Origin: a virus
Length of the DNA stretch: 24,743 nucleotides
Strand: one strand, 5' to 3'
IMG/VR virus record: IMGVR_UViG_3300028384_000667
Coordinates: 1 to 24,743 of that record
Translations under genes and position numbers: made by a program
Shown here: piece after piece, positions 10,610-20,764 of the stretch
Numbering within the stretch: the stretch's first letter is position 1
Layout: each line of letters begins with the position of its first letter
The notes under the pieces: generated by a model
What the model was told of the DNA's origin: nothing
Database searches by the model: none
What the model saw: only the letters and a program-made list of their open reading frames with translations

Positions 10610-11087
10610 ATGGGATGTCCGTTTTCTTGATTTAGCTCGGCATGTTTCAACATGGTCAAAAGATCCATCACGTAAAGTTGGTGCTATTGCAGTTGGAGAG
10701 TCTCGTAATATTTTAGCGACAGGATACAATGGATTTCCGTCTCGCATAAAAGATACCGAAGAGCGACTCAACAACCGTGAGATGAAATACGATCTTGTTG
10801 TTCATGCCGAAATGAATTGTATATACAATGCAGGAAAAGAAGGCGTATCATTACGCCGTGCTACAATGTATGTGTGGGGTTTACCGGTATGTCATGAATG
10901 TGCAAAAGGCATCATACAGGCCGGATTTTATAGAGTCGTAATCGCTGATGAAAATTACACCGATGAGAGATGGATAAATAGCTTTGAGAAAACACAAAAA
11001 TTATTTCATGAAGCCGGTATAATTTGCGATGCAATCGACCTACAACAATCCTTGGATACTACCCACTGGGAAGCCTTTAGAATCTGA
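10590..11087 (+). CDS. cd: dCMP deaminase
   Basis: 165 aa. It deaminates dCMP to dUMP, feeding dTMP synthesis. The zinc site is clear: HAE (H72-A73-E74) with the catalytic glutamate, and PVCHEC (C101, C104). KVGAIAV and GYNGFPSR match the family's substrate-binding segments. A second in-frame ATG at 10599 (MTNKWDV) is an equally likely start. Either start overlaps the zinc-ribbon gene, so coupling is likely. No thymidylate synthase gene is seen in this window; it may lie elsewhere or come from the host. Confidence 0.93.
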   Translation: MKSMTNKWDVRFLDLARHVSTWSKDPSRKVGAIAVGESRNILATGYNGFPSRIKDTEERLNNREMKYDLVVHAEMNCIYNAGKEGVSLRRATMYVWGLPVCHECAKGIIQAGFYRVVIADENYTDERWINSFEKTQKLFHEAGIICDAIDLQQSLDTTHWEAFRI

Positions 11088-11460
11088 AGACATTACAGAC
11101 TATGTGGGTATGGTCTATCTCATCGTCAATAAAACAAATGGTCGAAAATATATTGGTAAGAAATTCTTCTGGTCGACCCGCAAACTCCCTCCTCTCAAAG
11201 GCAAAAAACGAAAAAGAACAAAGACAGTAGAGTCTAATTGGAAAGACTACTATGGTTCGTCGACATGGCTTCAAGAAGATATAAGTAAACTAGGGCATGT
11301 TAATTTTGAGAGACATGTGATAAAATTATGTAATACGAAAACACAATGCGCTTACTATGAACTCAAAGAACAAGTGGATTGTGAAGCTATACTGACCGAT
11401 GAATACTATAATGATTTTATCGGCGGTAAAATAAATGGAAAAAACTTAGAAAGGTTATGA
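11029..11460 (+). CDS. GIY-YIG-like putative endonuclease
   Basis: 143 aa. GMVYLIVNKTNGRKYIGKKF (about residues 27-46) fits the two-strand GIY-YIG core in the relaxed form VYLI...KYIG. It is followed by a basic KGKKRKR stretch, DYYGSS and an acidic helix (YYELKEQVDCEAILTDEYYN) with a glutamate able to act as metal ligand. From memory this compact nuclease-like family is common in T4-like phages. It may be a stand-alone homing enzyme or a host-DNA-degrading nuclease. The start overlaps the deaminase end by 59 nt, but the N-terminal NNPW...GKPLESEDITDYVG is part of the family pattern and supports it. Confidence 0.75.
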   Translation: MQSTYNNPWILPTGKPLESEDITDYVGMVYLIVNKTNGRKYIGKKFFWSTRKLPPLKGKKRKRTKTVESNWKDYYGSSTWLQEDISKLGHVNFERHVIKLCNTKTQCAYYELKEQVDCEAILTDEYYNDFIGGKINGKNLERL

Positions 11461-18163: not shown

Positions 18164-18240
18164 CGGAGATTAGCACAGTCTGGTAGTGCACTCGCTTTGG
18201 GAGCGAGGGGTCGTAGGTTCGAATCCTACATCTCCGACCA
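18164..18240 (+). tRNA. tRNA-Pro (anticodon TGG)
   Basis: Full cloverleaf: acceptor stem CGGAGAT/ATCTCCG, D arm GCAC...GTGC, anticodon stem CTCGC/GCGAG around the loop TTTGGGA (anticodon TGG), T arm GTAGG-TTCGAAT-CCTAC, discriminator A and an encoded CCA end. All stems pair perfectly. It reads CCA/CCG and other proline codons, which the phage genes use. It ends 19 nt before the isocitrate lyase ATG, so both probably share a transcript. A promoter is not clear; the upstream 30 nt are AT-rich. Confidence 0.96.
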
Positions 18241-18259: not shown

Positions 18260-19501
18260 ATGAAAAAACGCGACTACACAATTGATGAAGTAAATCGCCT
18301 TCGAGGAACTGTTCAAATTGACCATACCCTCGCAAAGTTAGGAGCTGCAAAACTCCGGCAGCTCTTTGATGAGAATGAATACATCAATACATTTGGAGCT
18401 TACAATGGACAACAAGCTGTTCAACATGTCAAAGCTGGTCTTAAAGCCATATATGTTTCAGGATGGCAAGTGGCAGCCGCCGCTAACAGTACTGATGAGG
18501 TTTATCCGGACCAGTCTCTTTACTCAGTTAATTCTGTCCCTAATGTGGTACGGAATATTAATAATGCTTTTCGCAGAGCCGATCAAATCGAATTTCTTGA
18601 ACGTGAAGAAGGATTCCCATTCGCACCTATCATCGCAGATGCCGAGGCAGGATTCGGTGGAGTACTGAATAGCTATGAATTGGCTCGTAATCTTATTGAA
18701 GCTGGAGCTGCAGCGGTTCACTTCGAAGATCAGGTGGCTGCTGAAAAGAAGTGCGGCCATCTCGGTGGAAAAGTACTTATCCCTACTTCTCAGGCTATAC
18801 GTAATCTTAATGCTGCTCGGCTCGCTAGCGATGTGGCTGGCACTGACACCGTGGTTATTGCGAGAACTGATGCCGAATCTGCTAAACTTCTAAGTAGTGA
18901 TATTGATTCTATCGATAAGCCATTTATCAAACGTGTATCTCAAGGTTCTGGTGGTTCTATTAAGTGTCGAACTACTGAAGGTTTCTACATGCTTGAAGAA
19001 GGTAAGGGTCTTGAGTTTGGCTGCGTAAGAGGTCAAGCCTATGCAGAATATGCAGATCTTGTTTGGTGTGAAACTTCGAAACCTTGTCTCAAGGAAGCAA
19101 AACGATTTGCTGACGCAGTTAAAGGTGCTGTGCCTGACGCAATGTTAGCATACAACTGTTCGCCTTCGTTTAATTGGCGTAAGTCTATTCCATCTGATCA
19201 TGAACTCAAAATGTTCCAACGTGAACTTGGTCGTATGGGATTCAAATTCCAATTTATCACACTCGCAGGCTTTCATCAGACTAACTACTCGATTTTTGAT
19301 TTTGCTAATCGTTATAAAGATGAAGGAATGTATGCTTACAGTTTATTGCAAGAGGCAGAATTCGATGCAGAAGCCAGAGGTTACACGAGTACGAGACACC
19401 AAAGAGAAGTCGGTGTCGGTTACTTCGATGCCATTACTCAAACGTTGGGCTCTAAGAGTACTGCCGCCATGGCGGACTCCACCGAAACCGAGCAATTCTA
19501 A
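18260..19501 (+). CDS. aceA: Isocitrate lyase
   Basis: 413 aa from the ATG at 18260 with AGAGGA ribosome site; the longer frame back to 18197 lies inside the tRNA. The enzyme splits isocitrate into glyoxylate and succinate, the first step of the glyoxylate shunt. The sequence follows E. coli AceA (434 aa) almost end to end, lacking only about 20 N-terminal residues. Conserved features: SGWQVAA (67-73), YPDQSLY, DAEAGFGG (127-134), the catalytic signature KKCGH (163-167; Cys165), WCETS (269-273), SPSFNW (301-306), TLAG (334-337) and the TETEQF tail. KKCGH and the tail separate it from methylisocitrate lyase and PEP mutase. A roughly ten-residue insert (SQGSGGSIKC, about 227-236) is unlike AceA. 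All catalytic residues look intact. No malate synthase is in the window. Confidence 0.95.
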   Translation: MKKRDYTIDEVNRLRGTVQIDHTLAKLGAAKLRQLFDENEYINTFGAYNGQQAVQHVKAGLKAIYVSGWQVAAAANSTDEVYPDQSLYSVNSVPNVVRNINNAFRRADQIEFLEREEGFPFAPIIADAEAGFGGVLNSYELARNLIEAGAAAVHFEDQVAAEKKCGHLGGKVLIPTSQAIRNLNAARLASDVAGTDTVVIARTDAESAKLLSSDIDSIDKPFIKRVSQGSGGSIKCRTTEGFYMLEEGKGLEFGCVRGQAYAEYADLVWCETSKPCLKEAKRFADAVKGAVPDAMLAYNCSPSFNWRKSIPSDHELKMFQRELGRMGFKFQFITLAGFHQTNYSIFDFANRYKDEGMYAYSLLQEAEFDAEARGYTSTRHQREVGVGYFDAITQTLGSKSTAAMADSTETEQF

Positions 19502-19518
19502 TATATGTATATGGGATC

Positions 19519-19634
19519 TTGAGAAAGAAGGATAAGTCTTGGGCTGACTTAAAAAGCACCCTGGTCACGCCCCGGTACCTGAGCATGTAGTAAAACTGCT
19601 TATTCTAAAAGGTTATAAAAATGTGAAAAATTAA
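19519..19634 (+). pseudogene. Probable frameshifted small ORF
   Basis: Two overlapping frames read as one protein-like string if a single A is added to the run at 19551-19555. Frame one gives KKDKSWADLK, ending its good stretch at 19554. The -1 frame continues KHPGHAPVPEHVVKLLILKG and on to a TAA at 19632-19634. No ATG is in frame (only a TTG at 19519) and no good ribosome site is placed for it. Interpretation: remnant of a small gene broken by a one-base deletion and start loss. A -1 ribosomal frameshift at the A-run is a less likely alternative. Confidence 0.45.
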
Positions 19635-19683
19635 CAAAAATAATCTAAAAAAAGTACGTTTTTTTCGCTGAAAAATCGTAACA

Positions 19684-19736
19684 AAATCAACAACTTGCAA
19701 TTCTCTAAAAACTCTAATCAAATCAATAACTTAGAA
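19684..19736 (+). repeat. Two 17-bp direct repeats upstream of -35, copy 1
   Basis: AAATCAACAACTTGCAA (19684-19700) and AAATCAATAACTTAGAA (19720-19736) are spaced 36 nt start to start, the second abutting the -35 box. The placement is that of activator sites or an extended A-rich UP element. Confidence 0.65.
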
Positions 19737-19737
19737 G

Positions 19738-19766
19738 TTTACATTCTCTCATCCATTTAGTATAAT
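19738..19766 (+). promoter_or_regulatory. Strong sigma70-type promoter
   Basis: TTTACA (19738-19743), 17-nt spacer, perfect TATAAT (19761-19766). Transcripts would start near 19773 and include TTGTCAAATGGA and the structured leader before the ATG at 19903. Confidence 0.85.
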
Positions 19767-19789
19767 GCTTCTTGTCAAATGGAATAACG

Positions 19790-19870
19790 CAGTGGCCACT
19801 GGCGCCCTCGGGGCTAGATCAACTGCAAGCAGCTTAGCTGCTACTGGAGCCCACAGGGCTAGAACAACTG
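19790..19870 (+). promoter_or_regulatory. Structured leader RNA with a tandem 28-nt repeat
   Basis: A 12-nt perfect palindrome CAGTGGCCACTG (19790-19801) overlaps repeat A (19798-19825). A hairpin AGCAGC-TTA-GCTGCT (19828-19842) separates it from repeat B (19843-19870). The repeats differ at only 4 of 28 positions, and each contains GCCC-N3-GGGC followed by CTAGANCAACTG. Differences lie in loops or linkers while stems are kept, indicating RNA structure. It sits in the 5' leader of the gene at 19903. It matches no riboswitch class recognised here. Confidence 0.6.
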
Positions 19871-20572: not shown

Positions 20573-20645
20573 ATACGCGAAAGTTATATACTTAGGCGAA
20601 AATAGTCTAAAAAAAGTTGAAAAAAGTTATATAAAAATCGTAACG

Positions 20646-20698
20646 AAATCAATAACTTGCAAGTCTCCAAAAACTCTAATCAAATCAATAACTTAGAA
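20646..20698 (+). repeat. Two 17-bp direct repeats upstream of -35, copy 2
   Basis: AAATCAATAACTTGCAA (20646-20662) and AAATCAATAACTTAGAA (20682-20698), again 36 nt apart and again abutting the -35 box. Confidence 0.65.
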
Positions 20699-20699
20699 G

Positions 20700-20728
20700 T
20701 TTACATTGCAGCTACCGTTTGATATAAT
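20700..20728 (+). promoter_or_regulatory. Strong sigma70-type promoter
   Basis: TTTACA (20700-20705), 17-nt spacer, TATAAT (20723-20728), followed by TTCTTGTCAAATGGA. It drives the gene at 20765 and probably those at 21120 and beyond. Confidence 0.85.
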
Positions 20729-20764
20729 TCTTCTTGTCAAATGGAAAAACACAGGAAAAAAGCT

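Follow-up and report, generated by a model that had tools for sequence, protein, structure and literature searches.

The stretch of DNA analysed here (the window) spans the 24.7 kb of the IMG/VR virus record IMGVR_UViG_3300028384_000667, itself a fragment of a larger genome. The question raised by this locus is whether the isocitrate lyase (ICL) gene found in it encodes a working enzyme that belongs to the phage and, if so, what such an enzyme would do during infection. Isocitrate is the branch point between full respiration and carbon saving, and ICL, by established chemistry, yields succinate and glyoxylate. The features concerned are the following:

18164..18240, + strand: tRNA-Pro (TGG), ending 19 nt before the ICL start codon
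18248..18253, + strand: AGAGGA ribosome-binding site, 6 nt before the ATG, by sequence inspection
18260..19501, + strand: isocitrate lyase gene (aceA-type, 413 aa) of an N-terminally short viral class, from profile, PDB and model matches
18746..18760, + strand: KKCGH active-site loop, residues 163-167, invariant in 77/77 viral relatives
18926..18967, + strand: viral hairpin insert of 14 residues (223-236), from alignment and model, present in 43/77 viral relatives
19502..19535, + strand: conserved 3' element CIWDLEKEG*, in the +1 frame, right after the ICL stop

Identity and conservation of the window ICL

The ORF at 18260-19501 begins with the ATG at 18260, ends with the stop codon at 19499-19501 and encodes an AceA-type ICL with a complete catalytic domain. 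It scored 622 bits against the NCBIfam NF011645/PRK15063 equivalog (cut-off 562), 493.7 bits against TIGR01346 (cut-off 275.9) and 304.6 bits against Pfam ICL (gathering score 26), and PDB 6lrp stood at the top of the matches to solved ICLs with 520.5 bits. By the curated equivalog criterion the gene is, as far as its sequence tells, an isocitrate lyase. The full-length AceA-type enzyme announced in the preliminary description was thus recovered together with every motif named there, namely DAEAGFGG (residues 127-134), KKCGH (163-167), SPSFNW as part of NCSPSFNW (299-306), TLAG (334-337) and the C-terminal TETEQF, and the catalytic set (KKCGH loop, Mg-binding Asp/Glu, ARTD Arg, CET Glu and SPS/Thr) is present. 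The AlphaFold model (pLDDT 86.6) superposes on Brucella ICL 7rbx with a TM of 0.93 and an rmsd of 2.3, and the modelled fold is the ICL TIM barrel.

Comparison was made with 77 viral ICLs, which are the near relatives of the window ICL and include the contig L082 discussed below. SGW, PDQ, DAEAGFGG, KKCGH, ARTD, CET, NCSPSFNW and TLAG are kept across them and changes are rare. For the pairs where dN/dS could be estimated it lies between 0.03 and 0.11, by which measure the viral ICLs are under strong purifying selection. A degenerate enzyme is ruled out by the invariant motifs together with the low dN/dS, and the window ICL is predicted to cleave isocitrate to succinate and glyoxylate as a homotetramer.

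Compared with bacterial AceA (NF011645/PRK15063; PDB 6lrp, 7rbx, 3oq8 and 1f8i), the catalytic fold, the active-site motifs and the TETEQF-type tail are common to both, whereas the window ICL has no N-terminal RWxxIxR-type segment, has a longer hairpin at 223-236 and falls in a separate virus-only clade. The hairpin insert, the lost N-terminal segment and an identity of 56-62% to most cellular ICLs could indicate a relative of ICL with a changed substrate, for instance 2-methylisocitrate, or with lost activity. This reading is very unlikely in view of the ICL catalytic residues, which are invariant, and of the score of only 108 bits against PrpB (cut-off 354), to be set against 622 bits for the ICL equivalog.

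The short N-terminus and the hairpin insert

Both odd features singled out in the preliminary description, the short N-terminus and the Gly/Ser insert, do exist, but they are not defects, being common to relatives that are under selection. In all 77 near viral relatives (L082 included) the LxG[S/T] motif follows an N-terminal stretch of 12-17 residues, compared with one of at least 27 in the bacterial ICLs in which the motif could be placed; the short N-terminus is therefore a real trait of the clade. In many relatives, moreover, an adjoining upstream tRNA leaves no space for a longer ICL N-terminus. The RWxxIxR-type segment of cellular ICLs, a length feature outside the curated definition of ICL, is absent from the window ICL and from all 77 of these relatives, and its loss could alter the stability of the oligomer.

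The insert consists of residues 223-236, IKRVSQGSGGSIKC, at a place where most ICLs have 4 residues, and the structure model shows it as a lengthened beta-hairpin. It measures 12-14 residues in 43 of the 77 viral relatives, and its gain and loss need 6 changes on the tree. A blockage of the active site by the insert is judged unlikely, as insert-bearing ICLs retain all catalytic residues and are under purifying selection. Since both traits recur among relatives under purifying selection, they are best taken as inherited traits of working enzymes.

Genomic setting and gene junctions

Upstream of the ICL gene lie genes for a T4-type primase family member, NrdA, NrdB, dCMP deaminase, T4 RNase H, PhoH, an exonuclease and a 2OG-Fe(II) oxygenase, and downstream, at the right end of the window, the N-terminal domain of the T4 Gp59 helicase loader. 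T4 genes thus flank the gene on both sides, which places it within a T4-like genome. The GC3 of the ICL gene is 0.326, and that of most neighbours 0.23-0.38. The placement among phage genes given in the preliminary description holds, and the chimeric flanks that it named as a possible refutation were not borne out: an assembly or bacterial chimera is ruled out by the T4 genes on both sides, the neighbour-like GC3 and the conserved junctions. At the megablast level just the ICL and a short nrdA stretch of the window resemble any deposited phage. IMG/VR searches with the upstream 2OG oxygenase and with the gene downstream of ICL found zero and one viral relative respectively, and the window phage is therefore rare in IMG/VR.

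Two further observations were made in the window. A GIY-YIG SegE-like homing endonuclease gene at 11029-11460 overlaps the dCMP deaminase gene. A 122-nt repeat, 87% identical between its copies at 19671-19792 and 20633-20754, is intergenic and stands upstream of a gene in each case; the first copy contains a TATAAT-like box, for which reason the repeat may be a duplicated promoter cassette.

The position of the gene directly behind a tRNA, also claimed beforehand, was confirmed, tRNA-Pro(TGG) ending 19 nt 5' of the ATG. Among contexts of the window-type clade, a tRNA lies within 45 nt upstream of ICL in 29/72, compared with 19/993 for other ORFs, counts drawn from related and hence not independent sequences. 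Six tRNA types were found directly upstream of window-type ICLs.

At the 3' side, the 19502-19535 element corresponds to the C-terminal end of a membrane protein of 112 aa whose gene follows ICL in relatives. In many of these the membrane protein gene (L020:11245-11583 and relatives) starts on the ICL stop, as TAATG; the protein gave no family match and occurs in the deposited phage collection in C48C1 only. The C[IV]WDLE[NKS]EG* stretch stands alone after the ICL stop in 18/153 viral contexts (the window, L001, L024, L036, L047, L162 and others), at 10, 22, 25 or 31 nt from that stop and in the +1 frame every time. The stretch may be a remnant retained as the ribosome-binding site of the next gene. 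A programmed frameshift fusing ICL to the +1-frame WDLExEG tail was also considered; the spacing is always +1, and the slippery codon is inconsistent.

Distribution and ancestry of viral ICLs

Three IMG/VR scans, each with a different query enzyme, gave 123, 148 and 180 matching stretches, and once identical contexts had been removed there were at least 135 viral ICLs of the short-N-terminus class and 33 of full length, the IMG/VR copies numbering in the hundreds. In 50,697 deposited phage records, by comparison, one convincing ICL was found, that of the complete, circular C48C1; matches labelled as Salmonella, Escherichia and Acinetobacter phages look like host DNA. C48C1 (OQ984149.1, Kyanoviridae, complete at 156 kb) carries an ICL 87% identical to that of the window and annotated as a hypothetical protein. 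Its megablast match to the window is confined to the ICL region, and it differs from the window in lacking a tRNA directly upstream and in having an alternative oxidase. A PHROGs search returned no ICL family match and a BFVD structure search no ICL-like structure; with the C48C1 copy called hypothetical, viral ICL is probably under-reported.

In a tree whose root was assumed among bacteria, 33 viral ICLs and L082 are split from 41 bacterial ICLs by a branch of 100/99 support. In a wider tree the short-N-terminus class again holds together as one clade (SH-aLRT 100), divided into a window type and an L077 type, so that on these phylogenies the short-N-terminus viral ICLs are a single virus-only clade. 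The full-length viral ICLs branch among bacterial ICLs and were therefore acquired separately. The window ICL is up to 89% identical to viral relatives; among 398 genomes from a single phylum, that of a Pelagibacterales genome, the best cellular ICL has 62% identity. Apart from L082, no cellular ICL above about 64% was found in those 398 genomes or in the genome scan, cellular ICLs beyond that phylum being sampled only through pattern-based matches. A recent cellular donor was thus not found, the best cellular identity being about 64%: the protein search and phylogeny proposed earlier for tracing a donor led to a virus-only clade instead.

L082 (JAAERX010000037.1), a 76% match, comes from a Gammaproteobacteria MAG, where it stands on a contig of 6 kb. 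Because its ICL falls inside the viral clade and tRNAs and an oxidase gene lie nearby, this contig is regarded as viral, likely placed in the MAG by binning contamination. A second viral branch (L076-L080 and L265-L342) is very common and includes contigs of 338-374 kb; the neighbours of ICL there are often nrdA, nrdB or a gene for a fatty acid desaturase. In L002, L023, L029, L039 and L047 a permuted tmRNA gene, whose tag is of the ANDD..YALAA type, is found a few kb or less from ICL; one of these five also matches the alphaproteobacterial model, and together they are a weak pointer to hosts among the Alphaproteobacteria. A cyanophage host is not supported, psbA being absent from 26 ICL records.

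Recent capture of a host gene, or an assembly chimera, without a selected role in the phage might be argued from isolate collections nearly devoid of ICL, with one convincing record in 50,697 and the rest resembling host DNA. It is hardly credible and already contradicted by the T4 genes on either side, the ameliorated GC3, the virus-only clade under strong purifying selection, the conserved tRNA and 3' junctions and the presence of ICL in a complete circular genome. As expected of a phage auxiliary metabolic gene, the ICL gene lies in a bona fide phage context, with a complete circular phage among its relatives, and is kept by selection in phages as judged from dN/dS and the virus-only clade.

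The preliminary description did not know ICL as an established phage gene, a view that does not hold. aceA and aceB were reported in Pacific Ocean viromes in 2013 (PMC4053976), an aceBA operon in the 179 kb T4-like environmental genome TARA_ERS478052_N000008 in 2017 (PMC5332604), ICL in Pelagibacter viruses in 2023 (PMC10721903) and aceA in lake-sediment viruses (PMC12783922). Its novelty, which many known phage ICLs would undo, is in part removed by these cases and the IMG/VR copies. What is new, with no description found in the literature searched, is the virus-only clade, its common truncation and the missing malate synthase; new as well is the recurrence of viral ICL beside tRNAs, alternative oxidase or nrdAB.

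Partner genes of the viral ICL

Malate synthase was searched for in the 24.7 kb of the window and in 100 viral records of relatives, 6.87 Mb in all, among them the complete circular genome of C48C1 and contigs 137-374 kb long; none turned up, and the control genomes were positive. A complete glyoxylate shunt (aceA with aceB or glcB in the same genome) is accordingly not present in the window, a fragment beyond which malate synthase or alternative oxidase could lie, and the phage seems to supply the first step only. That malate synthase lies elsewhere in the genome of the window phage and both steps are phage-run is an unlikely reading, given these negative searches, although both genes occur in ocean viromes (PMC4053976) and as an operon in TARA_ERS478052_N000008 (PMC5332604). 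The latter, compared through its published description, shares with the window a phage-borne ICL in a T4-like genome but pairs aceA with aceB. The search for malate synthase suggested in the preliminary description therefore came back empty, and the bypass of the CO2-releasing steps proposed there stays plausible but incomplete.

In 15/73 window-type contexts an alternative oxidase gene is found no further than 1.5 kb from ICL, and 15 of the 50 ICL-bearing records searched contain one; conversely, ICL occurs in the examined surrounding DNA of 11/63 unique viral oxidase loci. The ICL-linked oxidase scores 219 bits against PF01786 and 122 bits against the PDB mitochondrial AOX. The plastoquinol terminal oxidase of cyanophages (phrog_4235), itself an alternative oxidase family member, is already known as an auxiliary gene. 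By a weak match (26 bits) the oxidase adjacent to ICL in relatives belongs to the same family, but general AOX is the closer relative of the ICL-linked oxidases, and no psbA occurs in the 26 ICL records searched. Phage alternative oxidase genes lie at L257:3331-3903 and C48C1 26249-26818, the latter downstream of tRNA-Thr; in the deposited phage collection this oxidase type occurs only in C48C1, which is also the ICL carrier.

In L077-type contexts nrdA is found no more than 1.5 kb from ICL in 37/62 and nrdB in 35/62, which ties ICL to nucleotide supply, and in the window nrdA and nrdB are about 8-11 kb upstream of ICL. Together with the absence of malate synthase from the 100 related records, these positions agree with an ICL that chiefly supplies glyoxylate for host transamination to glycine and thence purines for phage DNA, succinate being a by-product. 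This role is conceivable but rather doubtful: no SHMT was found in 26 records (nor citrate synthase or isocitrate dehydrogenase), no dedicated aminotransferase was noticed in a non-systematic look at aminotransferase families, and gene adjacency is no proof of flux.

Proposed role

An intact, conserved and selected ICL gene is present in T4-like phages, it belongs to one virus-only lineage, and no phage malate synthase occurs in the searched set. The window gene is probably a functional, phage-adapted ICL that cleaves host isocitrate and leaves the glyoxylate to host enzymes; we infer its catalytic activity and expression, the direction of flux and the host partner. During infection the phage ICL would split host isocitrate into succinate and glyoxylate, skipping both decarboxylating steps of the TCA cycle, and the succinate would pass directly to the quinone-linked dehydrogenase. 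As the phage seems to be without malate synthase, the glyoxylate must go through host enzymes: host malate synthase would turn it into malate and then oxaloacetate for amino acids and pyrimidines, or, alternatively, a transaminase would turn it into glycine for purines. In related phages the alternative oxidase beside ICL would be an outlet for the extra reduced quinone. In SAR11 genomes, to take one example, malate synthase is commonly kept and the occurrence of ICL in subclade IIIa is patchy (PMC10030771); a phage ICL could thus complete a half-pathway of its host.

It is tentatively proposed that the virus-only ICL without malate synthase and the phage alternative oxidase form a two-part respiratory-carbon module in many members of the lineage. 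If so, infected cells could oxidise succinate by a route that neither proton-motive force nor the decarboxylating part of the TCA cycle limits; no description of such a viral rewiring of the cycle was found in the literature searched. Taken together, a widespread viral lineage that keeps the branch-point enzyme only, under selection and structurally altered, suggests a repeated benefit to phages of aquatic bacteria, possibly that of carbon pushed beyond the CO2-releasing steps, and its recurring link with alternative oxidase or ribonucleotide reductase provides testable ideas on the reason.
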